A stretch of DNA of 36,479 bases from a virus, in IMG/VR virus record IMGVR_UViG_3300028925_007440, positions 1-36,479 of that record; one strand, written 5' to 3'. Under the pieces are notes generated by a model. The model was not told the origin of the DNA and searched no databases. It saw nothing but the letters and a program-made list of their open reading frames with translations. Positions 1-36,479 of this stretch are shown here, piece by piece. Position 1 is the stretch's first letter, and each line of letters starts with the position of its first letter. Both the position numbers and the translations under genes were made by a program.

Positions 1-30
1 GTTGCTATGGTTTTAAAGGATAGAAAATAG

Positions 31-210
31 TTGGGAAAATTTAGGTTAAGAATATACGACCACATTAAAAAGGAGATAATAAAGAGCCTTGTTGTAGAAG
101 CTAGTACCATAAGCATTGCAGCAAAATTAGCTGAAATACATAGCGAGGATTTAAAGTGGGAACACAAAGATACAACAATACAGATTGATGAGATAAAAGA
201 TGATGACTAG
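31..210 (+). CDS. Small hypothetical protein, TTG start
   Basis: A 59-residue charged protein beginning MGKFRLRIYDHIKKEIIK and ending in an acidic tail (DEIKDDD). I do not recognise it. The TTG start is chosen because AAAGGA lies about 10 bases upstream and no ATG fits the frame. The frame before it (bases 1-30) is open from the window edge and ends in TAG directly before the TTG, so the window probably begins inside another gene. Its end overlaps the next gene, consistent with one operon. Confidence 0.5.
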   Translation: MGKFRLRIYDHIKKEIIKSLVVEASTISIAAKLAEIHSEDLKWEHKDTTIQIDEIKDDD

Positions 211-448
211 TTTAATTTCAGCAATCGTTAACAATCTATTAGGGAGAGGTATAGCTTTCTTAACAGAATATTTTAAAAAACGTAAAGTAGCAAAACTTGA
301 AAGCGAAGTCTCTTCCTTAAAAGATAAAGTCTTAATTTTAAAAAAAGAAAAAGAAGCTCAAGTAAGAATTGAAAATTGGCAAGACCGATTAAGAAACAAG
401 GAAAACGAATCATTAACAAAAGAACTTAACAGGATTCTAAATGGCTAA
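200..448 (+). CDS. Small membrane-anchored coiled-coil protein, possible inner spanin
   Basis: The 82-residue product has a moderately hydrophobic N-terminal stretch (about residues 4-22), a basic stop (KKRK), and then a highly charged helix likely to form a coiled coil (about residues 30-75). This layout resembles an inner-membrane spanin or a small phage structural anchor. It is followed within 150 bases by a lipoprotein-like gene, which is the usual partner order. The hydrophobic segment is weak, so the spanin idea is inference. ATG occurs at 200 and 203; both overlap the previous gene. Confidence 0.55.
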   Translation: MMTSLISAIVNNLLGRGIAFLTEYFKKRKVAKLESEVSSLKDKVLILKKEKEAQVRIENWQDRLRNKENESLTKELNRILNG

Positions 449-593
449 ACAAAGACCGCTTACCGCAACTCAAAAAAATAAATCAATTAAGAAGAAAACA
501 TCACAATGTAGTAGTCTTAAAAGATGTAAAACTTCAAATTTATCAAAAAGCAAGAAAAGAAGTTATAAACCATATAATAGGCAGGGCAGATAA
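441..593 (+). CDS. Tiny basic hypothetical protein bridging two genes
   Basis: A 50-residue, very Lys/Arg/Ser-rich protein (starts MAKQRPLTATQKNKSIKKK). It overlaps the end of the previous gene by 8 bases, and its TAA shares a base with the next gene's ATG (TAATG), so translation of all three could be coupled. Only a weak AGGAT lies upstream. No family recognised. The protein could be a DNA- or RNA-binding peptide on composition alone, or the frame could exist mainly to carry ribosomes to the next gene. Confidence 0.5.
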   Translation: MAKQRPLTATQKNKSIKKKTSQCSSLKRCKTSNLSKSKKRSYKPYNRQGR

Positions 594-883
594 TGATAAA
601 TCCATTCACACGCATTTTAAGAGGGCATAAACAACAGATAAGCTATAAATCATATGTTGGTATTGCCTTAATAACAATATCACTCTTATCGTGCTCTTAC
701 GTTAACAAAAATTCCAATACTTTACCAGAAAAAATAAAATATGAAAAAGTTGAATTTGAACCATGTGCTTATAGTGGAAGCGGCTATGTTTGCATAAAAA
801 ATAGTGACGCAGTAAAACTTGTGATAAACTTTAAGCAATGCCAAGAGCAAAATAATTTACTGAGGGAAATTAATGGAAACTGA
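593..883 (+). CDS. Putative outer-membrane lipoprotein, possible o-spanin
   Basis: A 96-residue protein with a basic N-terminus (about 22 residues), a hydrophobic stretch (YVGIALITISLLSC) and a lipobox-like LLSC, then a short exported domain with further Cys residues. This is the architecture of a small phage lipoprotein. Together with the coiled-coil gene upstream it may be a two-component spanin pair that fuses inner and outer membranes at lysis. The lipobox is imperfect (Leu at -2) and the N-region is longer than usual. The start ATG overlaps the preceding stop. Confidence 0.55.
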   Translation: MINPFTRILRGHKQQISYKSYVGIALITISLLSCSYVNKNSNTLPEKIKYEKVEFEPCAYSGSGYVCIKNSDAVKLVINFKQCQEQNNLLREINGN

Positions 884-1148
884 AATAATGGCAATAGTGT
901 CTCAAGCACCAGCACTAGCAATAGTGGTCTGGCTTATAATGAGACAAGAGAAAACAAATGGACAGAAGAATGGAAATGGAGCTAACCTTGAGCTTGTTAG
1001 AGCTATTTCTGGTTCAATGGAAAAATTAGCAGATGCTCAAGTGGAAGCAAATAGAATTCACGCACAGAGAGGTAGGAGTTTTGAAAAATGGGTAGACTTC
1101 CAGCAACAGCAAGTATCAAGTCAGTTTCAATCAAGAAACCAAAAATAG
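873..1148 (+). CDS. Small single-TM protein, holin-like candidate
   Basis: The 91-residue product has one short N-terminal hydrophobic segment (about residues 7-23, QAPALAIVVWLIM) followed by a polar, probably helical tail. Short phage proteins with this layout occur beside spanins and are sometimes annotated as holins, but the sequence alone does not prove it. GAGGGA precedes the ATG at 873, which overlaps the lipoprotein gene by 11 bases. The position in this cluster supports a lysis or envelope role; no endolysin is visible nearby. Confidence 0.5.
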   Translation: METEIMAIVSQAPALAIVVWLIMRQEKTNGQKNGNGANLELVRAISGSMEKLADAQVEANRIHAQRGRSFEKWVDFQQQQVSSQFQSRNQK

Positions 1149-1471
1149 ACTATCCTAAATATTTGGCTCTTCAACTAGAAGACCACAAAGATATACCTAT
1201 ACCAATTTTTGAACATACGTTTCATCCTACAAGAAAGTGGAGATTTGATTTAGCTTTTATGGATGCTAAGTTAGCGGTAGAGGTTGAAGGCGGTATTTGG
1301 AATTATGGAAGACACAACAGAGCAGCTACCTTTATTAAAGACATGGAGAAGTACAATAACGCTTGTCTTTTAGGGTGGAATTTGTTAAGGTTGTCAACAG
1401 ATATGGTAAAGAGTGGCGAAGGCGTAATTTACGTTCTAAAATTCTTTAAAGGAGATAAATATATTGAATGA
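1088..1471 (+). CDS. PD-(D/E)XK-like endonuclease
   Basis: A 127-residue protein with the core of a VSR-like or DUF559-like nuclease fold: an aromatic/basic strand ending in Asp (RKWRFDLAF, Asp54), the metal-binding pair E65-V-E67 followed by GG, then WNYGRH and a helix/strand region ending GWNLLRL. These elements and their spacing match small phage endonucleases of the restriction-endonuclease-like superfamily, which act in DNA repair, recombination or host DNA breakdown. The ATG at 1088 has TAGGAG about 9 bases upstream and overlaps the previous gene by 61 bases. The precise substrate cannot be inferred. Confidence 0.72.
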   Translation: MGRLPATASIKSVSIKKPKIDYPKYLALQLEDHKDIPIPIFEHTFHPTRKWRFDLAFMDAKLAVEVEGGIWNYGRHNRAATFIKDMEKYNNACLLGWNLLRLSTDMVKSGEGVIYVLKFFKGDKYIE

Positions 1472-1676
1472 TGACTCGGTAGAGAAATCATTTTTATCCT
1501 TATATGACGAATTCCTCAAACTCAACATTCATACTCAATCTCAACAAAAGACAGATATCAAAATGAAATTAATTATGAAAGCAATATTATACGTCTTAGA
1601 AGATTTATCAGTACACTATTACTGGAAAGAAATAAATCGAGTAAAGGAAAAGAATGATGAAAAAGGTTCACACTAA
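1464..1676 (+). CDS. Small hypothetical protein, TTG start
   Basis: A 70-residue predicted mostly helical protein, not recognised. TTG at 1464 is supported by an excellent SD (AAAGGAGAT, bases 1448-1456) 7 bases upstream and by its 8-base overlap with the nuclease stop. The 3' end overlaps the metallophosphoesterase gene by 23 bases, so it belongs to the same transcript. Confidence 0.55.
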   Translation: MNDDSVEKSFLSLYDEFLKLNIHTQSQQKTDIKMKLIMKAILYVLEDLSVHYYWKEINRVKEKNDEKGSH

Positions 1677-2442
1677 AACAGTTTTTATTTCTGATATACA
1701 TATTCCGTATCAGGACAAGAAAGCTTTAACAATGGCGATGGAGCTTATAAAAGATTTAAAGCTTAAAGAGTACGACAATATCATAATTGGTGGAGACTTA
1801 GTTGACTATTACCCTATTTCAAGTTTTCATCCTGATTTAACACAATCTAATATTGACATAGAGCTCTTTGAAGCAGTAGAGTGGTTAAACAAGTTAAGAA
1901 AACTTGCTCCTAAGTCTGATATCTTTTTCTTTGAAGGAAACCACGAACAAAGGATGCAGAAAAAAATAATGTCTGCTACCAGCTCACTTGCTCCTTTTTT
2001 AAAAAATAGATTGTCAATAAGAGAGTTGCTAGAGTTTAGAAAGTTTGGAATTAAGTTTGTAAAAACTCCTTTCACTTTAAACAAAAAACTTTTCTTTTTA
2101 CATGGTCATGAAAAGAAAGGGTTTATAACTCCAAAACATATTGCTAATGTAAATCTTATGTATTACAATCGCAACGTCATAGTAGGACACCATCATAGAT
2201 TTGATATGAGCATAACAACTCAGTTAGATGGCTCTCTCTTGGGTGGTTGGGCTAATGGGTGTTTAGCGGATTTGAGTTTGCTACCAGACGGCTTGTACTC
2301 GTCTTTTGATTCTACTCAACGTGGTTTTACAATTGTTAATACAAAACCCAATGGTTTTTTTAGTGTAGACCTAGTGTTATTTATACCTAACAAACAAAAG
2401 GGTTACGAGTGCCTGTATAACGGCAAGTCTTATCAACAATAG
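1654..2442 (+). CDS. Calcineurin-like metallophosphoesterase
   Basis: The 262-residue protein carries the metallophosphoesterase metal-binding motifs in order: SDIH (Asp14, His16), GGDLVDYY, EGNHEQR, LHGHE and GHHHRFD. These ligands build the dinuclear metal site used by the Metallophos superfamily (phosphodiesterases, exonuclease-like and protein phosphatases). Phage members of this size are common, usually of unknown substrate; DNA or RNA end processing is one possibility. ATG codons occur at 1654 and 1657 after AAAGGA. The gene ends the first operon; a new promoter begins about 20 bases downstream. Confidence 0.88.
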   Translation: MMKKVHTKTVFISDIHIPYQDKKALTMAMELIKDLKLKEYDNIIIGGDLVDYYPISSFHPDLTQSNIDIELFEAVEWLNKLRKLAPKSDIFFFEGNHEQRMQKKIMSATSSLAPFLKNRLSIRELLEFRKFGIKFVKTPFTLNKKLFFLHGHEKKGFITPKHIANVNLMYYNRNVIVGHHHRFDMSITTQLDGSLLGGWANGCLADLSLLPDGLYSSFDSTQRGFTIVNTKPNGFFSVDLVLFIPNKQKGYECLYNGKSYQQ

Positions 2443-2460
2443 TTTTCTTATTAATTTAAT

Positions 2461-2488
2461 TTGATTTTAGTTATAGTTTGGGTATATT
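2461..2488 (+). promoter_or_regulatory. Sigma70-like promoter (TTGATT-N16-TATATT)
   Basis: TTGATT at 2461-2466 and TATATT at 2483-2488, with exactly 16 bases between. It lies in the gap after the metallophosphoesterase and points at the homing-endonuclease-like gene. The 16-bp spacer is shared with other promoters in this window. Confidence 0.55.
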
Positions 2489-2495
2489 TAACTAT

Positions 2496-2575
2496 AGGGT
2501 AATTCAAACATATTTTGATAACGAAGAAAGCCAAGAGATTGGCACTAGCCCTTTAAACTTTACCCTTGTTATGCT
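2496..2575 (+). promoter_or_regulatory. Structured 5' leader of the HNH gene
   Basis: The leader holds a long-range stem, AGGGTAA (2496-2502) with TTACCCT (2560-2566), enclosing a perfect hairpin GCCAA-GAGA-TTGGC (2530-2543) with a GNRA tetraloop. No Shine-Dalgarno sequence precedes the start at 2576, and the closing strand of the long stem ends only 9 bases before it. Such folding could limit translation of the endonuclease, as is known for some phage homing endonucleases. Function is inferred from sequence only. Confidence 0.4.
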
Positions 2576-3106
2576 ATGAAAGAAGTTTGGAAAGCAACAG
2601 AGTATCAAGACTACATAGTCTCTAACAAGGGCAGAATTAAATCTTTAAAATATTACACAACTGACAATAAACACGAAAGAATCTTAGCCCAAAACCCTGA
2701 CTCTGATGGTTACATGACAGTTACCCTATATCCTAATAAAACTTACAAGAAAGCTAAGGTACATCGTCTAGTTGCAATCGCTTTTTGTAAAGGCAAGAAC
2801 AATAACAAATCTTTAGCTCTACATATTGACGGGAAGAAAACAAACAATAGTTATAAAAATCTTTATTGGGGAAACGCTAAAGACAATAAAGCTGATTCAA
2901 TCAGGCATGGTACAAGTAGTGGAGCTTGGACTTGGGAAACTGCACCACATAGGAAGTTGCAACCTAAAGATGTTAAAAAAATTTGGAGCTTACTAAAGAA
3001 AGAAAGTATAAGTAAAATTGCTAAAATGTATAATCTTTGTTACAAAACAATTTATGACATTAAGACACAAAAAAACTGGAAACATTTAACTGTCAATTTC
3101 AAGTAG
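2576..3106 (+). CDS. NUMOD4/HNH homing-endonuclease-like protein
   Basis: The 176-residue protein starts with a NUMOD4 motif (EVWKATEYQDYIVSNKGRIK), followed by an HNH_3-type core (HRLVAIAF, LHIDGKKTNNSYKNLYWG, NAKDNKAD), then a C-terminal helix-turn-helix (ISKIAKMYNLCYKTIYDI) likely to contact target DNA. This is the standard order in free-standing phage HNH homing endonucleases, which cut related genomes and spread by repair. It has its own promoter and a structured leader and lacks an SD site. The last 21 bases overlap the convergent regulator gene. It is probably a selfish insertion next to the regulator. Confidence 0.85.
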   Translation: MKEVWKATEYQDYIVSNKGRIKSLKYYTTDNKHERILAQNPDSDGYMTVTLYPNKTYKKAKVHRLVAIAFCKGKNNNKSLALHIDGKKTNNSYKNLYWGNAKDNKADSIRHGTSSGAWTWETAPHRKLQPKDVKKIWSLLKKESISKIAKMYNLCYKTIYDIKTQKNWKHLTVNFK

Positions 3107-3481
3107 CTTAAATAGTTGTTTCTTTAAAGTAGAGTTTAATTTTATTCTGCCTGTTTCTACATGAGCAATAGTGCTTTTAGATATTTTGTATTTGTCGTTA
3201 AAAAGTTTTTCGCATACGTTTTGTTGAGACAAGCCAAGCAGTTTTCTTTTAGTGATTATCTTTTGTACGTCATTTAAAGTATTTTTCTTAGAGTTCCACA
3301 GTTCATATAAGTCTTCATATATGTTTTGCAAAGCGATTGTAGATAGTTTCTTCATTCTAAAAGACAACAATTGTTTGCTTATTCCATATTCTTTAGCTTT
3401 GTCTACTAAAGATTTGTTGTCAAAAATTGTGGCTTTTAGTGCATCGAAAGTTTGTTTTTTTACTTGTATAATGTTATCCAT
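3086..3481 (-). CDS. HTH (Cro/CI-type) transcriptional regulator
   Basis: 131 residues from ATG 3481 (an upstream TTG at 3517 would give 143). The C-terminal part (DVQKIITKRKLLGLSQQNVCEKL to HVETGRIK) is a Cro/CI-type helix-turn-helix, and an N-terminal segment (VDKAKEYGISKQLLSFRM) looks like a second, shorter HTH. The gene is divergent from the early operon, and the shared intergenic region contains a perfect palindrome over both promoter -35 regions. This fits a repressor controlling its own and the early promoter. No integrase accompanies it, so it may act as a lytic-cycle regulator rather than a lysogeny switch. Confidence 0.7.
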   Translation of the reverse strand: MDNIIQVKKQTFDALKATIFDNKSLVDKAKEYGISKQLLSFRMKKLSTIALQNIYEDLYELWNSKKNTLNDVQKIITKRKLLGLSQQNVCEKLFNDKYKISKSTIAHVETGRIKLNSTLKKQLFKLLEIDS

Positions 3482-3510
3482 ATAAAGTAAAGTTAACTCA
3501 AATAAAGGTT

Positions 3511-3527
3511 TTGTCAATATTTGACAA
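3511..3527. promoter_or_regulatory. Palindromic operator candidate
   Basis: TTGTCAATATTTGACAA is a perfect 7-bp inverted repeat around TAT. The right half overlaps the -35 (TTGACA) of the plus-strand promoter, and the left half contains TTGACA reading toward the regulator gene. A dimer of the neighbouring HTH protein bound here would block both promoters. Confidence 0.55.
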
Positions 3528-3548
3528 TAGTTATATCTTGTGTATTAT
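3521..3548 (+). promoter_or_regulatory. Early promoter (TTGACA-N16-TATTAT)
   Basis: TTGACA (3521-3526) and TATTAT (3543-3548) are separated by 16 bases, with TG just before the -10. A perfect TATAAT at 3546-3551 would need a 19-base spacer. It drives the operon beginning at 3587, whose first gene has a clear SD. Confidence 0.65.
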
Positions 3549-3586
3549 AATACCTAATATCAAATATTCATAAGGGGGTAATAAAT

Positions 3587-3751
3587 ATGTCAGTAGATGG
3601 ACAAGAAGAAATGTTAGAGCAAGTTCAAATGCAAGTTGAAGAAGAACTACCTAACGGAACAATAGAAGAAAGAAAAAAATTGTTTGACCAACTGGTAGAA
3701 CAAAGAGGTAATTATGGCGACTTCTTATACAGTATGTCAAAAGGAGATTAG
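3587..3751 (+). CDS. Small acidic hypothetical protein
   Basis: A 54-residue Glu/Gln-rich, probably helical protein (starts MSVDGQEEMLEQVQMQVEEE). It is the first gene after the repressed early promoter, with AAGGGGGT (3572-3579) as SD. First early genes of phages are often small host-takeover proteins, but nothing here identifies a target. Confidence 0.6.
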   Translation: MSVDGQEEMLEQVQMQVEEELPNGTIEERKKLFDQLVEQRGNYGDFLYSMSKGD

Positions 3752-3752
3752 T

Positions 3753-3905
3753 GTGGAAAAAACAAAGAATAAAAAGAGACCTGCAATAGCTAATTTAGGT
3801 GTTGGGTTTTTTGGTAAAATGCACAAAAACAAACAAGAGATGAAGGCTAAACATTCTCGGAGTGTTAGTGCGAGAAATAAAAAAAAGGATGGGAGAGGTA
3901 AATAA
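3753..3905 (+). CDS. Small basic hypothetical protein, GTG start
   Basis: A 50-residue Lys/Arg-rich protein beginning (V/M)EKTKNKKRPAIANLGVGFF and ending in a basic tail. GTG at 3753 is preferred over the longer in-frame ATG at 3714 because AAAAGGAGA (3739-3747) sits just upstream and the gene then abuts the previous stop. No family recognised; its charge suggests nucleic-acid binding. Confidence 0.55.
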   Translation: MEKTKNKKRPAIANLGVGFFGKMHKNKQEMKAKHSRSVSARNKKKDGRGK

Positions 3906-3906
3906 A

Positions 3907-4377
3907 ATGGCAAAAGCTAAAATACCATTACAGATGGTAGAAGGTAATATAGAAAAAGTTTCAGCAGATGGGAAAGGTGTTTTGTTAAATGACACTTGGT
4001 ACAACTATAGCAAAGACGCTTCTGAAGGTTGTACTCTAAGTGCGGGAACTAATGTTAGAATCACTTTTAAGAATTGGAAAAGTGCTGATGGCAAAATAGA
4101 AAGAAACTACATCGAAGAGCTAGGCAAGTCTGCTGAAGCCTTAGACAAAGAGCTTGATGTTGCAATGGGCATTGAGGAAGTACCTGCGTTTATTGATAAT
4201 CTAAAAAGTTCAAAGAAAAGCCCAGAAGAAAAGAAACAAGAATCAATTATCCGTCAATCTTCTTTAAAGTCTGCTGTACAATTTTCGCAAGGCAAGGATT
4301 TAAAACTTGAAGAAGTGTTTAACATTGCTGAAGCTATGTACGATTGGGTTGAACAAAAAGACCCAGTACCATTTTAG
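3907..4377 (+). CDS. Hypothetical early protein, possible OB-like N-terminus
   Basis: 156 residues from the ATG at 3907, which follows GGAGAGG; an in-frame GTG at 3862 lies inside the previous gene and is unlikely. The N-terminal 70 residues form a strand-rich region (GNIEKVSADGKGVLLNDTWYNY... VRITFKNW...) that could be a small beta-barrel, followed by a charged linker and a C-terminal helix (LEEVFNIAEAMYDWVEQ). It stands directly before the replication initiator, so a single-strand-binding or replication-accessory role is conceivable. That is inference from position and shape only. Confidence 0.6.
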   Translation: MAKAKIPLQMVEGNIEKVSADGKGVLLNDTWYNYSKDASEGCTLSAGTNVRITFKNWKSADGKIERNYIEELGKSAEALDKELDVAMGIEEVPAFIDNLKSSKKSPEEKKQESIIRQSSLKSAVQFSQGKDLKLEEVFNIAEAMYDWVEQKDPVPF

Positions 4378-4385
4378 GAGAGATT

Positions 4386-5252
4386 ATGAATCGTTGTATA
4401 CCAAATTATTATTCAATTCTTACTGCTGACATACGTTACGATACAAGGCTGAGTTGGTTTGAAAAAGTATTATATTCCGAGATATCGGCACTTACTAATA
4501 AAACTGGCGAGTGTTGGGCAAGTAATAAATATTTTGCGGATGTTTTTGCACAGTCAGAAAGAACGATAACTCGTTCAATTAGTATGTTAAAAGAACTGGG
4601 ATATTTACAGCTTAAGCTAGAGTTTGATGGTAAGGCAATAACAAAAAGAACAATAACAATAGCTAAACCCCTAGACAATAATGTCAGTACCCCTATAGAC
4701 AAAAATGTCAGTACCCCTATAGACAAAAATGTCTACCCCCCTATAGACAAAAATGGCGACTATAATACTACAAGTAAAATTAATATTACAAGTAGTAATA
4801 TAAATAGAGACATGGAAGATTTTACAGTATTCTGGAAAAGTCTTTTAGGAAGAAAGAAAAACAAAAACGATGCCTTTAAAGTCTATCAAAAAATAGACTG
4901 TGATTTAACAGCAGACAAGTTAGCTGAGAAATTTAATCAGCTTTTACAAACAAGAGAAGAGAAGTTTGTGCCTTATCCTCAGAAGTGGTTAAAGAACGAA
5001 GGTTGGAACGAAGAAGAAACAATAGGAGAAAGGCGAGGAGATTTTCATTATGATGCACCCCCTTTACAAGTTGGAGAGAAAGAAGGAAGTATATCGTTAC
5101 ATGAGGATGAAATCGGCTCTGCTCCAAACCCTAATGCAACTCAAACAGAACTTTGTGAGTTCTATATTTCCGAGTACAAAAAGACAGGCGACACCAAAAT
5201 GGTTAACTACTATCGAGACCACTTACAGCACTTGCAACAAGCAGAAAAGTAG
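4386..5252 (+). CDS. Replication initiator / replisome organiser with winged HTH
   Basis: The 288-residue protein has an N-terminal helix-turn-helix domain (about 15-95; LTADIRYDTRLSWFEKVLYSEI, then TGECWASNKYFADVF and RTITRSISMLKELGYL) of the kind at the start of phage replication initiators. A linker of four 8-residue repeats (PLDNNVST, PIDKNVST, PIDKNVYP, PIDKNGDY) follows. The C-terminal part (about 140-210: FTVFWKSLL, AFKVYQKI, PYPQKWLKNEGWNEE) is typical of phage replication proteins or helicase loaders. The repeat-coding DNA looks like origin iterons, so the gene probably contains its own origin, as lambda O does. SD is AGGAGAG. Confidence 0.78.
   Translation: MNRCIPNYYSILTADIRYDTRLSWFEKVLYSEISALTNKTGECWASNKYFADVFAQSERTITRSISMLKELGYLQLKLEFDGKAITKRTITIAKPLDNNVSTPIDKNVSTPIDKNVYPPIDKNGDYNTTSKINITSSNINRDMEDFTVFWKSLLGRKKNKNDAFKVYQKIDCDLTADKLAEKFNQLLQTREEKFVPYPQKWLKNEGWNEEETIGERRGDFHYDAPPLQVGEKEGSISLHEDEIGSAPNPNATQTELCEFYISEYKKTGDTKMVNYYRDHLQHLQQAEK
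4668..4808. repeat. Iterons plus AT-rich segment: candidate replication origin
   Basis: Three to four tandem units of 24 bp (first unit 22 bp) start at 4668, 4690, 4714 and 4738. Each begins with CCCCTATAGACAAAAATGTC or a close variant. Every unit contains the dyad GACA-N4-TGTC. Immediately 3', bases 4761-4808 are almost all A/T with two copies of TACAAGTA, resembling an unwinding element. The order iterons then AT-rich DNA inside the initiator gene matches the lambda origin. Function is inferred. Confidence 0.6.
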
Positions 5253-5273
5253 AATATAATTCAGGAGAAACAA

Positions 5274-5483
5274 ATGACAAAAGAACTACAAGATAGTCTA
5301 AAGAATAAAGAATTAGGTACATTTGTTATTCTTTACGCACTAAAAAATTATAGAACAAGTTTTACCCTTGATAAAGATATGCCAAAATATGCACAAGTTT
5401 TGAATAGCCTTATTGAGAAGTATGATAAAAAAGCAACAGATATTTTAATTAAAAAAAACCTAATAAGCGGAGTAGCGAAATGA
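5274..5483 (+). CDS. Hypothetical protein
   Basis: A 69-residue protein (starts MTKELQDSLKNKELG), predicted helical, no family recognised. CAGGAG precedes the ATG. It overlaps the next gene by 4 bases (ATGA type), so both are co-translated in the early operon behind the initiator. Confidence 0.6.
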   Translation: MTKELQDSLKNKELGTFVILYALKNYRTSFTLDKDMPKYAQVLNSLIEKYDKKATDILIKKNLISGVAK

Positions 5484-6010
5484 ACGAAATTTTAAAAGAG
5501 TCAACAGAAACATTAGAACAAAAAGCAACAGTTGAATCCTTAGTAGACAAACTTCGTAGTATTAATGTAACAATATTAAAAGGTAGGCTAGAACGGGGTG
5601 CTTATCTTTTAGCAATAAAACAAGAAAAACTTTATGTTAACTATGATTCTTATTGTGTAACTTGGAACAATTTTTTAGAAGCAATTAATGTTCCTAGAGA
5701 AACGGCTCGACAAGACATGAAAATATATGAAAAGTTTGCTGAGTATTTAAACGCAAACTCTTTGTGGCTACAGAAGATTCCTTACGAAAGATTAGTTAGG
5801 TTGTTGCCCGTTGCGGAAAACATGAACAATAATGATGACGTTGCAAACATTCTTTATATGGCATACGAGTCTAACAGAAATGATTTTGACAATAACCTAA
5901 AAGAACTAAAAGGTTTGATACCTACAGATACTTGTAAGAGTCATTTTGAAAATCCTCAGATATACGAAAAGTGTACAGTCTGTGGCGACTTTAGAAAAAA
6001 GGACAATTAA
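5480..6010 (+). CDS. Hypothetical protein with C-terminal zinc-binding motif
   Basis: A 176-residue protein. The N-terminal two thirds are helical (LERGAYLLAIKQEKLY, YDSYCVTWNNFLEAINVPRETARQDMKIYEKF), with a look of phage DNA-binding proteins of the DUF3102 type. The C-terminus has CKSH followed by CTVCG, which could bind zinc. It follows the initiator and precedes an HNH-like gene, so a DNA-metabolism role is likely but unproven. GGAG lies upstream of the ATG. Confidence 0.6.
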   Translation: MNEILKESTETLEQKATVESLVDKLRSINVTILKGRLERGAYLLAIKQEKLYVNYDSYCVTWNNFLEAINVPRETARQDMKIYEKFAEYLNANSLWLQKIPYERLVRLLPVAENMNNNDDVANILYMAYESNRNDFDNNLKELKGLIPTDTCKSHFENPQIYEKCTVCGDFRKKDN

Positions 6011-6310
6011 TTGATACAAGAGATAATTGACAAACACTCTTTAAATTATGTTGATTGGATTAGAAAAAAAAGTTGTTGCATTACTGGTTACGAACATTCT
6101 GACCCACACCATTTGGATGCAATAGGAATGGGACAAAATCGAAACCGACCAAGCTACAAACATTTTACTTGCGTTCCGTTGTGCAGAGAAAAACATAGTG
6201 AGTTGCACCAGATTGGACAAAAAGCGTTTGAACGAAGATACAATTGTAATCTTTGGGAAGTAGCTTTCTATAACTATCGCAATTATTGTTTGACTATAGA
6301 CAATAGTTAA
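6011..6310 (+). CDS. DUF968-like / HNH-type phage recombination nuclease
   Basis: The 99-residue protein contains CCITGYEHSDPHH, then VPLCREKHSELHQIG and FERRYN. The pattern C-x-x-(T/C)-G...DPHH...VPLCR-x-H...ELH is that of the DUF968/HNH-like proteins found in the recombination or replication regions of many phages. Asp-Pro-His-His and the C-terminal Cys/His are the probable metal site. TTG at 6011 immediately follows the previous stop; no ATG fits. The terS promoter lies within its last codons. Confidence 0.68.
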   Translation: MIQEIIDKHSLNYVDWIRKKSCCITGYEHSDPHHLDAIGMGQNRNRPSYKHFTCVPLCREKHSELHQIGQKAFERRYNCNLWEVAFYNYRNYCLTIDNS

Positions 6311-6317
6311 TTATCAT
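6290..6317 (+). promoter_or_regulatory. Promoter for terminase, TTGACT-N16-TATCAT
   Basis: TTGACT (6290-6295) and TATCAT (6312-6317) with 16 bases between. The -10 ends 6 bases before the terS ATG at 6324, where transcription should start, and no SD lies between, suggesting a leaderless message. Confidence 0.6.
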
Positions 6318-6323
6318 TATTAC

Positions 6324-6710
6324 ATGGCAGGAAAAAGAACCTCTAAGCTCCAATTTATAAGTGCTATACAAAAACACAAGGGTATGGTGGTAGATGTCTG
6401 TAAAGAGCTACAAATATCTCCACAGGCTTTCTACAAAAGAATTAGAACCAACCCAGAGCTTAAAGAAGAGTTTGAACAATCAAGAGACACAATGATTGAC
6501 TTTTGTGAAAGCAAACTAAAACAACTAATTGAGGAAGGTCATTTCCCTAGCATACAATTTTATCTTCAATGTATCGGTAAAAATCGTGGTTGGGTAACCA
6601 AACAAGAACACCATACAACAACAGAAACAAAAAATTATGTTGTGGCAATACCTCAAGAATCTATGATTGAGGAAGAAGATATTGAAGAAATCGAAACAAC
6701 CTTTAACTAA
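6324..6710 (+). CDS. terS: Terminase small subunit
   Basis: 128 residues. The N-terminus is a helix-turn-helix (FISAIQKHKGMVVDVCKELQISPQAFYKRIRTNPELKEEF) like those of phage small terminases that read the packaging site, followed by a helix (SRDTMIDFCESKLKQLIEEGHFPSIQFYLQCIGKNRGW) typical of this family's oligomerisation segment. It directly precedes the large subunit. The start ATG has no SD and sits 6 bases after a good -10 box. The ring it forms would bind phage DNA and feed it to TerL. Confidence 0.82.
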   Translation: MAGKRTSKLQFISAIQKHKGMVVDVCKELQISPQAFYKRIRTNPELKEEFEQSRDTMIDFCESKLKQLIEEGHFPSIQFYLQCIGKNRGWVTKQEHHTTTETKNYVVAIPQESMIEEEDIEEIETTFN

Positions 6711-8052
6711 TGATGTAATTTGGCAACCCCATCCAAGACAATCAGAATTTTTATCTACAACTGTAGATGAGTGTTTGTTTGGTGGAGCAAATGGCGGGGG
6801 CAAGTCTGACGCTATTATGGTTTTACCTTTAAGATGGATTTATCATGCTGAGTTCCGTGCTGTTATCTTTCGTAGAAACACAAAATCACTTAGAAGAATC
6901 ATTGACCGAACAATGCAAATTTATAAAAAAGTAGAGCCACAAGTTCATTGGAGTGAACAAAAGCTAACATACACTTTTCCATCAGGAGCAAAAATATATC
7001 TTTTTCACATGGAGCATGAAAACAATAAATATGATTGGGAAGGTATTCAACTTAACTTAGTTTGCTTTGATGAAATTACTTCTTTTACTGAAGAACAATA
7101 TATGTATTTGTTTTCTAGGATTCGCTCTACTTGTCCAGAGCTACCTAAATACATGAGAGCAACAGGCACTCCAAGTGGGGACAATATTGGTTGGGTTAAA
7201 AAACATTTTATTGATGTTTGTAAACCAAACAAAATCTATAGAGATGGAAGAACAAAACTAACTCGACAATATATACCAGCAACAGTAGACGACAATCCCT
7301 CATTAAAAAATACCGACCCTAACTATGAAAACAGACTAAGAGCCGTTGGAGACGAAAAAACTTATCGCAGACTTAGGTTTGGGGATTGGACAATAGTAGA
7401 AGGGAGTGCTTTTGAAGAACTAGATGAGTCAGTTCACAAAATAAAAGATTTTGAATTACGAAATGATGACATAGTTATTAGAAGTATGGACTGGGGGTTT
7501 GCAAAGCCTTTTGCAGTTTTGTGGGCAGTACAAAGAGAAGAAGCAATAATAGTTTTTAAAGAATTTTATGGGGCTACAGGCAGAAAATTAGACGAGGGCT
7601 TAAGGATGTCTGCTGAAGATGTAGCAAAACAAATTGTTGATTTAGAAAAACCATTTCCTTGTGGAGTTGCACTAAGTTATTGCGACCCTGCTTGTTGGAG
7701 TAAAATAAATCAAGTTGAAAGTATTGCGGATATATTTATGAACAATAGTGTGTTCTTTTTACGAGCAAAAAATGACAGAATTATGGGTAAACAACAAATA
7801 CATTTAAGATTAAAAATAAATGAACACAGAGAAGCGAAGTTGTATATTCATGAAAGTTGTCATTACCTTTGGCAAGAGTTACAAAACATACAACTCGACC
7901 CAAGACGTTCAGGCGAAGATGTTAAAACACAAAAGTGCGACCACGCTTATGACGCTTTAAGGTACGGCTTAATGGGTAGCCCAGTTGGTAGCGATGGCAA
8001 TAGTGATGTTTACTTGGGTGGCACTAGAGAAACATCTCAACAAGAATTTTAA
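6682..8052 (+). CDS. terL: Terminase large subunit
   Basis: About 456 residues. ATPase motifs: HPRQSEF adenine-binding region, Walker A GGANGGGKSD, Walker B LVCFDEIT and a coupling region at RATGTPSG. Nuclease motifs: SMDWGFAKPFAVLW (first Asp), SYCDPACW and CDHAYDALRYG near the end. This is the complete packaging motor ATPase and headful/site nuclease. TTG at 6682 is chosen because GAGGAAG lies in place as SD; an in-frame TTG at 6667 is the alternative. It overlaps terS. It is separated from the portal by 7 kb of accessory genes, which is unusual. Confidence 0.93.
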   Translation: MKKSKQPLTNDVIWQPHPRQSEFLSTTVDECLFGGANGGGKSDAIMVLPLRWIYHAEFRAVIFRRNTKSLRRIIDRTMQIYKKVEPQVHWSEQKLTYTFPSGAKIYLFHMEHENNKYDWEGIQLNLVCFDEITSFTEEQYMYLFSRIRSTCPELPKYMRATGTPSGDNIGWVKKHFIDVCKPNKIYRDGRTKLTRQYIPATVDDNPSLKNTDPNYENRLRAVGDEKTYRRLRFGDWTIVEGSAFEELDESVHKIKDFELRNDDIVIRSMDWGFAKPFAVLWAVQREEAIIVFKEFYGATGRKLDEGLRMSAEDVAKQIVDLEKPFPCGVALSYCDPACWSKINQVESIADIFMNNSVFFLRAKNDRIMGKQQIHLRLKINEHREAKLYIHESCHYLWQELQNIQLDPRRSGEDVKTQKCDHAYDALRYGLMGSPVGSDGNSDVYLGGTRETSQQEF

Positions 8053-8439: not shown

Positions 8440-8508
8440 GACCCCTGAAGGAGAGACACTCCTTGACCAAGAAAACGTCTCACTCATAATGCCTTTGGGG
8501 GTCTCCTT
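8440..8508 (+). ncRNA. Nested hairpin RNA, terminator or switch candidate
   Basis: Outer stem: GACCCCTGAAGG (8440-8451) pairs along all 12 positions with CCTTTGGGGGTC (8492-8503), using two G-U pairs. Inside it GAGAC (8453-8457) pairs with GTCTC (8477-8481), and CTT-GACC-AAG (8462-8471) closes the tip. A second GTCTCC at 8501-8506 could compete for the GGAGAGAC strand, giving an alternative fold. No classical U-tract follows. It could end the upstream transcript or be a small structured RNA. Confidence 0.5.
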
Positions 8509-8522
8509 TCCAAACAACTTAT

Positions 8523-8604: not shown

Positions 8605-8862
8605 ATGAGCCACAGAATTAATGACGAATGGTTAGAAACATTTTATGAAAATCTTGAAGCAAGATGTTTTGAGCTTAATGGCAAAAGGCAAGATGGAAAA
8701 TATCAGTCAAGCAACTTGGTAGACTTTCTTGAAAGCCACGAACAAATTGCTGTATCAGATTTGATGTGCGATGAACTTACACCACAACAAGCGGTTACAG
8801 AAACAATATCCAAATTTGAATCATGGATAGACGAAGAACAAAATGCAGGGGAGATAATATGA
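8605..8862 (+). CDS. Hypothetical accessory protein
   Basis: 85 residues (starts MSHRINDEWLETFYENLEAR). The ATG at 8605 is chosen over a longer frame because AAAGGAGAG (8592-8600) precedes it and the longer frame would run into the promoter. An acidic helical protein of no known family. The stop overlaps the next start (ATGA). Confidence 0.6.
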   Translation: MSHRINDEWLETFYENLEARCFELNGKRQDGKYQSSNLVDFLESHEQIAVSDLMCDELTPQQAVTETISKFESWIDEEQNAGEII

Positions 8863-9242
8863 AAGAGAATATGAAAGTTTCTGTGTTTGGAACTAAGGGA
8901 GACAATATGATAACAACAGATAAAATGTTGAACGAAATGTTAGTCAGCAAAGTTGACTACAAAGATTTAAAGAAAGAAGATGTTTTAAGAACTACGCAAC
9001 TTGGCGAACCAGTTACATCAATCTTGATGGAATCTGTAAAACAAGGACGAGGATTGAAACCAACAATATTGGTTAACACCAAAGGAAGCGAAGTTGGTAT
9101 GTTTGACGAAATCGGTTCTGTCTTTGCAGATGATGTATCTCAGGTTAAGAAAGATGGGGAGTGGCTTGAAGTAATTAACAAACCGCAGACAGGCAAAAGA
9201 GTTCAAGATAAGTTTTTTGCAGGAGAGGAAATAGATGAGTAG
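8859..9242 (+). CDS. Hypothetical accessory protein
   Basis: 127 residues from ATG 8859, with CAGGGGAGA as SD and an ATGA overlap with the preceding gene. The C-terminal half is strand-rich and acidic. Bases 9176-9198, encoding NKPQTGK, recur identically at 10599-10621 in another gene. Not recognised. Confidence 0.58.
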   Translation: MKENMKVSVFGTKGDNMITTDKMLNEMLVSKVDYKDLKKEDVLRTTQLGEPVTSILMESVKQGRGLKPTILVNTKGSEVGMFDEIGSVFADDVSQVKKDGEWLEVINKPQTGKRVQDKFFAGEEIDE

Positions 9243-9495
9243 AAAATATACGAAACATGGATTAGATTTTATGAACTGCGATGAATCAGAATTTCAAAAA
9301 AGGTTAGATTTTTTAGAAGACTTTTTAACTGAGCTTGGCAGATTAGTCGATGGAGACTCAGGAGCTTTCCAACGAACTATGCAGGGTTGGACTCCAACTG
9401 ATGTCTACGAAAAAGGAACAAAAGAAAAAAAACTACCTGAGCAATTAGCTGAGGAACTTTATAAAGAGAGAGGTGTAACAAATGCAAGACATTAA
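9235..9495 (+). CDS. Hypothetical accessory protein
   Basis: An 86-residue protein (starts MSRKYTKHGLDFMNCDES), predicted helical, not recognised. GGAGAGG precedes the ATG; it overlaps both neighbours, so it belongs to the 8.6-10.3 kb operon. Confidence 0.6.
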   Translation: MSRKYTKHGLDFMNCDESEFQKRLDFLEDFLTELGRLVDGDSGAFQRTMQGWTPTDVYEKGTKEKKLPEQLAEELYKERGVTNARH

Positions 9496-9865
9496 CAAAG
9501 ACGACAAAAAGATAGAAGCTTTTTTTATTGACAAACGAAAAGAGTATTCTAAAAAATACTACGAAAAAAACAAAGAGCTTATCCTTGCTAAGAACAAAGA
9601 GTGGAGAGAAGCAAATCCACAACGAGAGAAATCTAGGAAAGCTGATTGGTATGTTCAAAACAAAAACCATGTTGCCGAAACACAAAAAAACTACATGGAT
9701 AAAGTTGGCAATGAATTGAGAAGAGAAAAATATAACAATTTAAAAACTACAGACCCAACAACATATCAAAAAAAACTTGCTTATCAAAAAGAATGGAGAG
9801 ACGCAAACAAACAAAAAGTGGTGGAGTATAGAAACAAGCACCAGAGAAAGGTAACCAATGAATAA
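9482..9865 (+). CDS. Lys/Glu-rich repeat protein
   Basis: 127 residues with several copies of a YY/YxxKNK..W(R/Y)xxN-type module, for example KKYYEKNKELILAKNKEWRE and YQKEWRDANKQKVVEYRNK. Such modules occur upstream of HNH domains in some phage and algal-virus proteins, but no HNH is present here. The modules may bind nucleic acid. GAGAGG lies upstream of the ATG. Confidence 0.58.
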   Translation: MQDINKDDKKIEAFFIDKRKEYSKKYYEKNKELILAKNKEWREANPQREKSRKADWYVQNKNHVAETQKNYMDKVGNELRREKYNNLKTTDPTTYQKKLAYQKEWRDANKQKVVEYRNKHQRKVTNE

Positions 9866-10330: not shown

Positions 10331-10358
10331 TTGACATTGACTGTACTTCAGGTATTCT
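10331..10358 (+). promoter_or_regulatory. Promoter, TTGACA-N16-TATTCT
   Basis: TTGACA (10331-10336) and TATTCT (10353-10358), spacer 16. It is followed by about 200 bases of structured leader before the next gene at 10568. Confidence 0.65.
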
Positions 10359-10364
10359 TACCTA

Positions 10365-10567
10365 TGAACTTACAGAATAAACCAAGTGGTAGAGAGCGAT
10401 TCTCAAAGGACTCAAGCGAGACATAAACCCCACTTCGCTACAGCAGAGACAGAGATGTCTTGTAAGACTAAGCCTAGCAGGGAATGTCGAATTCCAGTAT
10501 GCGTAACAAGATGTAAGTAATATAGAAAAATAAGTATGCCGACATATCGGCAGGGAGAACAAAAATT
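10365..10567 (+). ncRNA. Multi-hairpin leader or small RNA
   Basis: Between promoter and gene lie several local stems: AAGTGG/CCACTT (10384-10389 with 10430-10435) enclosing GAGA-GCGAT-TCTC (10392-10404) and CTC-AAGC-GAG (10411-10420); AGACA-GAGA-TGTCT (10447-10460, GNRA loop); GGAAT-GTCGA-ATTCC (10481-10495); and GCCGA-CATA-TCGGC (10538-10551). The last ends beside the SD AGGGAG (10552-10557). A 20-codon frame from 10363 has no SD. It could be a regulatory leader or an independent small RNA. Confidence 0.5.
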
Positions 10568-10656
10568 ATGATTGAAACATTTAATAAGAACGCAGAGATA
10601 ACAAACCGCAGACAGGCAAAAATTATGATTGAAACATTTAATAAGAACGCAGAGAT
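10561..10656 (+). repeat. Direct repeat pair flanking a copied 23-mer
   Basis: Bases 10561-10599 and 10618-10656 are identical 39-mers, 57 bases apart, so the start of the gene at 10568 is duplicated in frame. Most of the spacer belongs to a 23-mer (10599-10621) identical to 9176-9198. Confidence 0.85.
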
Positions 10657-10918
10657 TTTACGACACGCAAATTTTAACATGGACAAACAAGACTTTGTAA
10701 AGTTTGTCTTGAATAGGTGGAGAGATACTCAAGATAACTTTGACTGCTACACCGATGAGAAGTTTTCAAGGTTTCAAGAAAACACTTTGATGTGGCTAGG
10801 CACTCTTTCAGGCAAAGCCTATTGGGAAACATTACAAGGCTTGTTAGATTGGTACACCATAAACTATAAAGATATAGATGAAAGGTGTCGAGCTAACGAA
10901 GCAAGGAGAAAAATATGA
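10568..10918 (+). CDS. Hypothetical protein with duplicated N-terminus
   Basis: 116 residues. MIETFNKNAEI occurs twice, 19 codons apart, because of the DNA duplication. Only the first ATG has an SD (AGGGAG), so it is the likely start; the second ATG at 10625 is the ancestral-looking one. The rest (DFVKFVLNRWRDTQDNFDCY, WETLQGLLDWYTINYKDID) is an aromatic-rich helical protein of no known family. It overlaps the next gene by 4 bases. Confidence 0.62.
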   Translation: MIETFNKNAEITNRRQAKIMIETFNKNAEILRHANFNMDKQDFVKFVLNRWRDTQDNFDCYTDEKFSRFQENTLMWLGTLSGKAYWETLQGLLDWYTINYKDIDERCRANEARRKI

Positions 10919-12282: not shown

Positions 12283-12288
12283 ATCAAG

Positions 12289-12310
12289 AGGGGTTAAAAT
12301 AACGACCCCT
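12289..12310 (+). terminator. Stem-loop after the plus-strand block
   Basis: AGGGGT (12289-12294) pairs perfectly with ACCCCT (12305-12310) around a 10-base A-rich loop, just after the last plus-strand accessory gene. There is no U-tract, so it may be a weak terminator or an mRNA 3' stabiliser. Confidence 0.4.
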
Positions 12311-12616
12311 TAAACCCACAGTAGAAATCGCCCCAATATGGGAATCACACCAATAAGAGTACACTTGTTCATATAGAGAGAGATGTACTTCTTAATCTAT
12401 CTTAAATGAGCTAAGAAGAGTGATATAAGGATAGTTAGTATACTAAGAGAGTATGTAGTCATTCTAATGATAACAGTAACTTAGCTATCTTTTAGTTTAG
12501 TAAGTTTATGCAGTATATATATTTTGCACTTCTTTCTTTGAGAGAAAGCGAGAAAAAGAAGCATTACTTTGGTTAGTTTAGGTTATATAAACTAGAACCT
12601 GTCAGTTCAAACCAAA

Positions 12617-12744
12617 CAATAGTAGCGTAAGGTTAATTAAAAAAAAGACTTGACAAATTATTGCTTGACTTTTAAAAAAAGAAAATAAAAAAGCAATAGT
12701 GGCGTAGAGACAATAGCTGCGTAGAAGCAATAGTAGCGTAGAGC
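12617..12744. repeat. 17-bp tandem repeats (CAATAG-type)
   Basis: Three 17-bp units start at 12694, 12711 and 12728 (CAATAGTGGCGTAGAGA and two variants). A fourth partial copy (CAATAGTAGCGTA) lies at 12617. They sit in non-coding DNA, so protein coding cannot explain the periodicity; they look like protein-binding iterons. Confidence 0.6.
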
Positions 12745-12814
12745 AACCTAGCAAATAGAAAAACAGAAAGCGGATTCGAATTGTGGACATCATGGAGTTA
12801 TGGACTCGGTTTAT

Positions 12815-12842
12815 CCAGATTAAAATTAAAATAAAAATCTGG
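12815..12842. other. Hairpin with A-rich loop
   Basis: CCAGATT (12815-12821) pairs with AATCTGG (12836-12842) across a 14-base A/T loop; flanking TTTA and GTAAA could lengthen the stem with wobble pairs. Confidence 0.4.
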
Positions 12843-12992
12843 GGTAAAGTTTAAAGTTAAAGATGTGATATCTTAAGAGTTAATCTAAGCCCTACCTAAG
12901 GCACGTTTAAAGGGGTACGATAAAAAACCCACTTGACCCGATGATCGATGTGGTAAGAGCTTATTTTATTCTATTCTATGGATGTTTTGAAA

Positions 12993-13010
12993 GGGGCTAG
13001 GATTAGCCCC
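12993..13010 (-). terminator. Strong hairpin, terminator of the minus-strand block
   Basis: GGGGCTA (12993-12999) and TAGCCCC (13004-13010) form a perfect 7-bp stem with a 4-base loop. Read on the minus strand it is followed by TTTC, and it lies 130 bases beyond the last minus-strand gene, so it probably terminates that operon. Confidence 0.45.
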
Positions 13011-13139
13011 CCTAATGGATACCCTAATTGAGAATTAATAGGGTGTTGAAAATTGTAAGGATTGCCAATAATACGATATTGACAAATACCCAATCAGTGG
13101 ACAAAGGTCTTTTTAAATCTACACGATTTTTAAAATCTC

Positions 13140-21208: not shown

Positions 21209-24100
21209 TTACACATACTCTCCTTCAAATGGTTCAGACTTAGACTTTGTTACTATTTTTAACCAGTCTAAATAATCTTGGTTGCTTTCAAACCTAGCAA
21301 CAACTTCTTTGCCTTGTGATTTAGTTTTATCTGGTGCTATATCAATAAAAGTTCTATATTCAAGTCCAAGACCTAGAGTATGTAAAGCTTCGGAGTAAAA
21401 ACCAAGACCTTCATCTAAGTAAAAGATTTTTGGGCTTCCTTCTTCTGCGTGTAAGAATTCATCTCTAAATTCTTTAACAGCTTTTCGTAAATATGTTTGT
21501 GCTTGTGGTGTTACGCCACCTTTTTGTTCCATTTCATATCTAGCTAAATGTACCCAATCTCTAATCATTAAAAACTTACCTAAGTTTCTAGTAGGATTAA
21601 TTTCTCTATCTTTTAACATTAAGTCTATATTACGTTGAAACCTAGCCTTTCTGCCAGTTTCCGTAAAATAACCATCATGGGCAATATCAACATCGCCAAG
21701 AATAGAACTAGCCCCAACGCCATCATTAATTTTAAACTCTGGATGTTCATGAACGTACCCGTAAAATTTAATCCCTATATGGTTTCTAAACAATCTGATT
21801 GGTAAATCTATCTTAAACGAGCCTACTGGGTCAGTTGTAAAGTGGTGTTGTTTTATAGAGTACCCGTTAAATATATTAGGGCGAAGGTATTTATAAAGAT
21901 TTGGTACATTAGTAATCTCTTCATCGTCATCTATCCAAAAAATCCAATCTCCTTTTGCATCTTTAATAGATTTGTTTCTACAAGCATCAAAGCCAATCTT
22001 GGTAGCATTTTCTGAAGTTATAATCTTTGCTCCAAATTGTTTACATATTTCTACGCCATTATCACTTGAGCCATTATCAACAACAATAATCTCATCAGCA
22101 AAAGGTTGTACAGATTTTAAACATCTGCGAATCATATCTTCTCCATCTTTGAGAATCATACAAGCTGAAACAGTTTGTCTAGGAGATTGCAAGTCAAGAA
22201 ATCTTTTAAATTTTATAGGTTGTGTTTTAGCAACAGATTTCTTCCAACTAAAAATCCACCAACCTAAATTATCTTGCACTCTAGTATTCGTTCCCGCAGA
22301 ACACATTTTCATATTAAAGTCTTTTTTAGTGTTTAACATTTCTCTAAGCTGTTCTCTTTCAAAGTTCCACAAATGTGCTTTTCTTTCGTCTTCCCATAAA
22401 CCAAAAGGAACAGTAAAAATAATGTACCCATCATTTTTAACTTGCGATTCTAGCTCATCAATAAACTCTTCTGGACTAGGCTGATGCTCTAATACTTCGC
22501 CACAATAAGCAATATCAACTTTTGGTATATCTAAGTTGGCAGGAGATGATTCTTTTATAATGTCAATTAATTCAGGTCGCTTACAATTCTTATCTATAAA
22601 CTTTTTAGTCATTTCTATTTCTGCATCACTAATATTTACAGAGTGAACTTTTGCTCCAAAATATGCTGTAAACAATACTGACTCATTACCTATACCTGCA
22701 CCATAATCTAAAATACTTATGTTTTCAGGTTTGTTTTTTAAAGTAGCAATATGCTTACCAATTTCTTCTAAAACAATTTTAGTTCTTGAATATTCTTGTA
22801 ATGGAAACTCTTTATCCTCAGCTTCCATCTCTGCTTTTAATTCTTTTCCTAGTTGAACATAAAACTCATTATACTTTTCTTTGTCTTCAAGATATGGATA
22901 TTCTTTGTTAATTTTATTAATCCATTCTTTATTTTTAGTTTCTTCTGACAAATGTTTCAAAGCCATAATGTTTTCGGTTCTATAAAGATGTTTAGATAAT
23001 GTTTCTTTGTTTGCGGTTCTTTCTTTAAACATTTCATAAATATGTTTTTCCCATTCTTTAGCAACGTGTTTCCATTGATTGTTGTCAACGTATGATAAAC
23101 CAGCTTTTTGAGCCTTTTCATATTTTGCGTCATCTTCAATAAGCTCAAATACTGCATTAACAAAGGCTTCTTCATATTCAGGTGTTTTAGCGTCTCCATC
23201 AATAATAGAAGCATAGTCTTCTCTACAAGTTTCAGGTAGTGCTCCAATGTTAGAAGTAACCATTGGTAGTCCGCACATTTGTGCTTCCATAACAGTTATG
23301 CAAGATGTTTCTTTAAAATTAGTAGGATAAACGTAGACACCTGCACCTTTATACAATCCATATAAATCATTTTTAGTTAAAGCACCAACATGACCAATTG
23401 AATAGCCTTGTTCTTTGTAAACTTTAATTTGATTGTTTAGTTCATTATAGAAGTTAGCCATGTCAGGGTGTGTATTGTCATAACCTGCAATAACAATTTC
23501 TATTTCTTTATCTTTAGCCCATAACTTTGGAGCAATACTATAAAGCAAATTATCAAGACCTCGTTCTGGTCTGTTGGTGTAAACAAGTCTTTTTCTATTT
23601 CGTTTTATGTCGCCTTCAACTTCTTTCTTAGTTATCCCATTTCTAGTTTTCCAAAATAACTTTTTGTCAGTTTGATATATTTCTGCTTGTTGATTTATAT
23701 GAAAGTCTGATAAAGCCCATACTTCATCAATGTTCCATAGAGAACCAGTAAAGTCACTTCTTCTACTTTTTACGGCTACATCATGATTCCACAAAATGTT
23801 AATCTTGGATTTATTATCTCTTTGATATAGTTCTGGTATGCGTTGATTAATAGTTACATCGCAAGAACAATAGTCAAGATATCCTTGTAACTTATTATGA
23901 TGAATCCAATGAACCCCATTATGAATTCCTTCTTTTGTAGTATTACAGAACAAACTAACGTCATGACCAAGTGCCGCTAACTCTTGAGCCATGCAAATTC
24001 CTGCAGTTTCGCTGCCACCCAAACTTTTAGTTGCAAGTGTATCATGGTTCATTTCCATTCCCATAACAATAAGACTTATTTCTAGTTTGTGGTTTTTCAT
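21209..24100 (-). CDS. Trifunctional GT4 glycosyltransferase - methyltransferase - GT2 glycosyltransferase
   Basis: 963 residues with three domains. About 1-350 is a GT4-type glycosyltransferase (GGSETAG near 28; ETSCITVMEAQMCGLPMVTS near 270). About 440-600 is a class I SAM methyltransferase (ILDYGAGIGNES; EVLEHQPSPEEF). About 635-860 is a GT2 glycosyltransferase (TVSACMILKDGEDMIRRCL; EIIVVDNGSSDNG; WIFWIDDDEE with the metal-binding acids). It lies on the opposite strand within the virion genes, ends 2 bases from the upstream stop and has its own SD (TAGGAG), so it behaves as an inserted moron. It may modify host surface glycans or virion proteins. Confidence 0.88.
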   Translation of the reverse strand: MKNHKLEISLIVMGMEMNHDTLATKSLGGSETAGICMAQELAALGHDVSLFCNTTKEGIHNGVHWIHHNKLQGYLDYCSCDVTINQRIPELYQRDNKSKINILWNHDVAVKSRRSDFTGSLWNIDEVWALSDFHINQQAEIYQTDKKLFWKTRNGITKKEVEGDIKRNRKRLVYTNRPERGLDNLLYSIAPKLWAKDKEIEIVIAGYDNTHPDMANFYNELNNQIKVYKEQGYSIGHVGALTKNDLYGLYKGAGVYVYPTNFKETSCITVMEAQMCGLPMVTSNIGALPETCREDYASIIDGDAKTPEYEEAFVNAVFELIEDDAKYEKAQKAGLSYVDNNQWKHVAKEWEKHIYEMFKERTANKETLSKHLYRTENIMALKHLSEETKNKEWINKINKEYPYLEDKEKYNEFYVQLGKELKAEMEAEDKEFPLQEYSRTKIVLEEIGKHIATLKNKPENISILDYGAGIGNESVLFTAYFGAKVHSVNISDAEIEMTKKFIDKNCKRPELIDIIKESSPANLDIPKVDIAYCGEVLEHQPSPEEFIDELESQVKNDGYIIFTVPFGLWEDERKAHLWNFEREQLREMLNTKKDFNMKMCSAGTNTRVQDNLGWWIFSWKKSVAKTQPIKFKRFLDLQSPRQTVSACMILKDGEDMIRRCLKSVQPFADEIIVVDNGSSDNGVEICKQFGAKIITSENATKIGFDACRNKSIKDAKGDWIFWIDDDEEITNVPNLYKYLRPNIFNGYSIKQHHFTTDPVGSFKIDLPIRLFRNHIGIKFYGYVHEHPEFKINDGVGASSILGDVDIAHDGYFTETGRKARFQRNIDLMLKDREINPTRNLGKFLMIRDWVHLARYEMEQKGGVTPQAQTYLRKAVKEFRDEFLHAEEGSPKIFYLDEGLGFYSEALHTLGLGLEYRTFIDIAPDKTKSQGKEVVARFESNQDYLDWLKIVTKSKSEPFEGEYV

Positions 24101-35116: not shown

Positions 35117-35569
35117 ATGGGTTATACAGCACAAAGCTTTACAGTAGGACAAAAGCTAACTAGCACACAGCTTAATACAATAGACCAAAATTTTGATGCT
35201 ATTGCAGATGGAGACCCAAGTGCACCTAGACTACCAAGACCAAATATATGGGTTCACTTCTGTGGATTCTCAACAGCAGACAAAGGCATATATGCACAAA
35301 GAGGAGTCTCAAGTTTTACAAGAAATGGCACAGGAGACTACACAATAGCTTTTACCACACCTTTGTCATCAACCAATGTAGGAATGAGCATATCAACTGA
35401 TAGTGCTTTTGCATATACTGACGTTTCAGTTAGAAACGCAAATTGTAATGCACTAACAACAACAGAAGCTAAGTTTAGATATCATGCAGCTAACGCAAGT
35501 GGCAATGCAGTTGAAGACCAAGTGGCAATATTTGCAACAGTCTGGGACTATGGGGCAGGTGGCTTTTAA
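35117..35569 (+). CDS. Tail fibre paralogue 1
   Basis: 150 residues starting MGYTAQSFTVGQKLTSTQLNTIDQNF, the first of three related proteins sharing F-x-x-GQ-x-LT-x-x-x-(L/M)N-x-(M/I/L)-x-(E/Q)NF. The rest is strand-rich (YAQRGVSSFTRNGTGDYTIAFTTPLSS; VRNANC). A TACAAT box lies 9 bases before the ATG and there is no clear SD. Likely receptor-contacting or fibre-tip protein. Confidence 0.65.
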   Translation: MGYTAQSFTVGQKLTSTQLNTIDQNFDAIADGDPSAPRLPRPNIWVHFCGFSTADKGIYAQRGVSSFTRNGTGDYTIAFTTPLSSTNVGMSISTDSAFAYTDVSVRNANCNALTTTEAKFRYHAANASGNAVEDQVAIFATVWDYGAGGF

Positions 35570-36473: not shown

Positions 36474-36479
36474 TAAATA

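Follow-up and report, generated by a model that had tools for sequence, protein, structure and literature searches.

The segment between a promoter and the gene at position 10568 of the window (the whole 36,479-base virus record analysed here) is packed with short hairpins, and a first-pass annotation had read 10365-10567 as a leader or small RNA with several hairpins, belonging to no class that it recognised. The question raised by this locus was whether the hairpins belong to a real RNA, where that RNA begins and ends, and what it might act on.

The phage genome and its relatives

The window is a siphophage genome, which encodes a terminase large subunit, portal, head protease, major head protein and tail tape measure. 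Contig L006 aligned to positions 35266-36474 and then directly to 1-7244, and the window is therefore essentially one whole, circularly mapping genome. Compared with sequenced phages, the best terminase matches were below 60% identity, with 32-35% identity among the matches listed, and many of the matching phages were marine. One relative carrying the locus, the 5,980-base contig L003, was recovered by using the protein encoded downstream of the RNA as the query (89% identity). Its DNA similarity to the window (to about L003 position 4349) extends into the HNH-like gene upstream of the RNA.

Several other features of the genome were noted. The replication initiation gene (4386-5252) contains three direct repeats with 24-base spacing at 4672-4755, which resemble the lambda O iterons and are a probable replication origin. 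In the roughly 850 bases at 12283-13139 no gene is obvious; repeats resembling CAATAGT(A/G)GCGTAG occur there several times (about 12618-12745). A 963-aa multidomain protein is encoded on the minus strand at 21209-24100, amid the head and tail genes; its domains are glycosyltransferase group 1, methyltransferase and glycosyltransferase family 2.

Conservation and compensatory changes

The alignment with L003 showed a conserved block running from the promoter through about 10533, while the surrounding spacer matched poorly. Within the RNA, 13 of 153 aligned positions differed (8.5%), compared with four-fold site differences of 41% in the terminase gene, 38% in the gene at 8907 and 24% (4/17) in the gene after the RNA. 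Of the substitutions, six made up three both-side changes (one in hairpin P3 and two in P5), one turned a G-U pair into a G-C pair, six fell at unpaired positions, and no pair was broken. The compensatory base changes expected of a structured non-coding RNA, on which the first-pass annotation had made its reading depend, were thus found at three pairs between the two sequences. With only two sequences known, P1, P4, P6 and the possible pseudoknot are invariant and hence contribute no covariation.

RNAalifold was used to score the window/L003 alignment against column shuffles that kept the substitution classes, and none of 2000 shuffles was as good (z -3.9, plus strand). The lowest z among 62 control windows, drawn from aligned and largely coding parts of these two contigs, was -3.0. 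The reverse (minus) strand gave z -2.0, and a reverse-strand RNA was set aside as less supported. When the 13 substitutions were placed at random, zero broken pairs together with three compensations occurred in 5 of 10^6 trials, a figure that is optimistic because these data had also guided the choice of structure. A generic two-row shuffle, which has little power here, gave 61/500.

The stability of single sequences was less distinctive. For 10365-10600 of the window the folding energy gave z -0.97, with 38 of 200 shuffles as good, and the 153-nt core of the window gave z -1.4, whereas the L003 homolog alone folded better (z -2.7, 1% of shuffles). The excess stability over shuffled sequence that had been proposed as a check was therefore only marginal in the window copy and clearer in its relative. 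The structured RNA is supported by its conservation and compensatory changes rather than by folding energy, and on this comparison of sequences the folded RNA is almost certainly real.

The region did not behave as a coding sequence. The longest open reading frame inside the RNA (from GTG at 10386) has no Shine-Dalgarno sequence (SD), its end is altered in L003, and it shows 7 replacement against 3 silent codon changes; this excess of replacement over silent changes argues that the RNA region is not coding. In L003 a 1-base indel disrupts a short ATG frame that lies just past the -10 element.

Limits and architecture of the RNA

The coordinates of the locus are collected in Table 1. Folding the L003 and window copies together gave a 7-bp end-to-end stem, P1, followed by P3, P4, P5 and P6, so that 10365-10518 would form one self-contained unit, closed by P1 around four internal hairpins. 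An extra hairpin, AACC-GAAAA-GGUU, is present in L003 at a place where the window copy has a 9-base gap. All the hairpins that had been listed from the window sequence were recovered, the GAGA tetraloop among them. The original limits did contain the RNA domain, but they overran its predicted end at 10518, and the closing stem was missing from the list.

Table 1. Coordinates of the RNA, its promoter and nearby genes in the window
Feature	Position	Strand	Remarks
Terminase large subunit	6667-8052		
Protein with weak HNH endonuclease match	9482-9865		phrog_7091, E 7.7e-8; upstream of the RNA
Sigma-70-type promoter of the RNA	10331-10358	+	TTGACA-N16-TATTCT
Probable operator	10350-10363		Palindrome AGGTA-TTCT-TACCT spanning the -10
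Conserved structured RNA, ~155 nt	10365-10518	+	Predicted limits: start set by the promoter, end by stem P1
Closing stem P1, 5' strand	10368-10374	+	ACUUACA; joint fold
Closing stem P1, 3' strand	10512-10518	+	UGUAAGU; pairs with 10368-10374
GUGG	10386-10389	+	Possible partner: CCAC 10430-10433, P4 loop; both invariant
Hairpin P3	10392-10404	+	GAGAGCGAUUCUC; in L003 GAGGGCGACCCUC, one both-side change and one G-U to G-C
Hairpin P4	10415-10439	+	AGCGAG...UUCGCU; invariant in both copies
Hairpin P5	10443-10463	+	GAGA tetraloop; L003 differs by two both-side changes
Hairpin P6	10481-10495	+	GGAAU-GUCGA-AUUCC; invariant
Linker 3' of the RNA	10519-10537	+	A/U-rich, partly conserved; read from the sequence
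Hairpin directly 5' of the SD	10538-10551	+	GCCGACAUAUCGGC; goes with the downstream gene and lies outside the RNA
First gene after the RNA	10568-10918	+	116 aa (or 97 aa from 10625); L003 homolog 89% identical

The proposed GUGG/CCAC pairing with the P4 loop would make a pseudoknot, and the linker that follows the domain might be a processing site.

The good promoter that the first-pass annotation had placed ahead of the hairpins was confirmed, and L003 has one at the same place (TTGACA-N16-TATACT). P1 begins 1-4 nt past the expected transcription start. The palindrome over the -10 element, AGGTA-N4-TACCT, is the sole perfect copy on the plus strand of the window and is perfect in L003 as well; it is probably a repressor site, which would make the promoter repressor-controlled.

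The downstream gene and its own hairpin

A search for a family match to the first gene after the RNA found none. In L003 the RNA block is followed by about 280 additional bases, which include a 62-aa open reading frame with its own SD (GGAG) and a start at 5030. Beyond this insertion lies the counterpart of the SD hairpin (CCGACATATCGG, 5222-5246), followed by an SD and then by the gene homologous to that at 10568. Because the extra gene separates the RNA from this hairpin, the hairpin belongs to the downstream gene, and the earlier description of it as the last element of the same RNA was not upheld.

In the window a 40-base perfect direct repeat with 57-base spacing (10560-10656) duplicates, in frame, the beginning of the gene at 10568. 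An exact 23-base match links the filler of this repeat to the gene at 8823-9242 (positions 9176-9198), and L003 has a single copy of the 40-base repeat. Either template switching or an assembly error could be its origin.

Search for known classes and further copies

The covariance models of Rfam 15 (4227 families, among them riboswitches, group I introns and the cyanophage motifs) gave no match in the window, either at the gathering cut-off or at E up to 10, which agrees with the earlier view that the RNA fits no recognised class. For L003 the best match was Lnt, whose 18.5 bits fell short of the cut-off of 55, and ARAGORN found neither a tRNA nor a tmRNA in the RNA. The readings as a group I intron, tRNA-like RNA, tmRNA, retron, ToxIN-type RNA or packaging RNA were dropped for want of an Rfam or ARAGORN match, and among the proteins scanned there was no partner gene for these classes. 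On the basis of these comparisons, a folded RNA of about 150 bases without a known class would be previously undescribed.

Further copies were sought in several collections. DNA patterns made from the conserved blocks returned L003 alone plus chance matches from viral contigs, and from genome contigs four matches without further similarity, which were taken as chance. Blastn gave only short chance matches to phages and none to plasmids. Neither the covariance model search that had been suggested, run over 39 sources, nor protein-guided searches using four proteins found a third copy beyond the window and L003. The RNA was absent from the sequenced stretch of L005 (83% terminase identity), and the sequences of L004 and L006 stop before the position of the RNA. 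A 9-nt match to 16S rRNA (CGUAACAAG) was also seen, with a length that we take to be about chance expectation.

Comparison with known RNAs

The phi29-type packaging RNA is a phage RNA of similar size whose 5' and 3' ends are paired, as they would be here, but the terminase large subunit of the present phage is an ordinary one and the RNA has no Rfam match. The sequence GGUAGAG resembles a D arm and GUCGAAUUCC a T arm, although the RNA has no cloverleaf and was not detected by ARAGORN. The manA, wcaG and PhotoRC-II motifs, structured RNAs of marine metagenomes and cyanophages that lie in likely 5' UTRs, were likewise found by comparison (PMC2864571). However, those motifs are represented in Rfam and occur with genes for metabolism, stress or photosynthesis, whereas the present RNA matches no Rfam model.

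Antiterminator RNAs of the put type act in early phage transcripts, where termination is suppressed via the beta' zinc-binding domain of RNA polymerase. In phage HK022, putL and putR are promoter-proximal, putL lying just downstream of PL, and the put RNA is about 70 nt long with two stem-loops and acts on RNA polymerase without a dedicated protein (PMC9378689). Both this RNA and ours are phage RNAs, promoter-proximal and structured from the first bases, and ours would begin at the expected transcription start. However, it is about 155 nt long and, in the window copy, combines a closing stem with four hairpins. Its size and shape exclude it from the put-type family, and any antitermination here is hypothetical.

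Mode of action

The explanation we favour, with a little less than even confidence, is a non-coding structured RNA of about 150 nt at the 5' end of the operon transcript, acting in cis as nascent RNA. A promoter that is probably repressor-controlled would start a transcript whose very 5' end is the RNA domain. The domain would fold as a unit from P1, the four internal hairpins and possibly the pseudoknot, and the nascent RNA could then affect the whole operon transcript, through RNA polymerase elongation or the stability of the 5' end. The target would most likely be the whole transcript, and not how the first gene is translated. Regulation of a single gene's SD is disfavoured because the fold is kept although the first gene differs in L003. 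Co-transcription with the operon fits, since the plus strand of the window has no intrinsic terminator between the RNA and the first gene, and L003, despite its different first gene, shares the gene after that. No strong terminator for an antiterminator to overcome was found in the short operon, and for that reason we can only infer a cis mode of action.

The leader and the separate small RNA of the first-pass annotation both survive as readings, and we only slightly prefer the nascent cis-acting module to an RNA cut from the same transcript, for example in the linker, that acts in trans on host or phage targets or by binding a protein. This second explanation has an appreciable, though minority, chance of being right. 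The domain is self-contained with joined 5' and 3' ends, it has its own promoter, its immediate neighbour gene is not conserved, and its unpaired segments are nearly identical in the window and L003. Against this, a plus strand terminator is absent at its 3' end, and its longest complementarity to the phage genome (11 nt) was no better than that of shuffled RNA (mean 11.1), leaving it without a known target. A classical regulator of the next gene, such as a riboswitch, protein-binding leader or thermometer working through translation or termination, is unlikely. The location in a 5' UTR would suit it, with an SD and start codon 35-50 nt downstream of the domain in the window, but the next gene in L003 is a different one that starts about 110 nt past the domain; in the window there is no plus strand intrinsic terminator between the RNA and the first gene, no terminator or anti-SD switch was seen, and Rfam gave no match. 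That there is no RNA element at all, and that the hairpins arose by chance in plain intergenic DNA or in a hidden small gene, is very improbable. The window copy barely outfolds its shuffles, but such DNA would explain neither the strong conservation beside four-fold sites that differ by 24-41%, nor the compensatory changes, nor a fold that none of 2000 column shuffles equalled, nor the excess of replacement changes in the only long frame.

The structured RNAs of phages of uncultured bacteria are poorly catalogued. With its clear start, defined architecture and covariation support, the RNA at 10365-10518 is a candidate new RNA motif and a candidate for RNA-based control of phage transcription. 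A bolder proposal, which we regard as doubtful at present, is that it represents a new class of phage RNA: autonomous, possibly pseudoknotted, heading a repressor-controlled operon, and serving either to modify the host RNA polymerase as nascent RNA or, once processed, to act in trans.

A second conserved structured element was observed at 8440-8510 of the window, at 2611-2683 of L003 and at 3621-3690 of L004, with the gene after the terminase on one side and the next promoter on the other. It consists of a long-range stem of 10-13 bp and an inner hairpin, and its sequence differs among the three phages while pairing in each. By its place it is terminator-like, without a T run, and it could alternatively be a packaging or recombination site.
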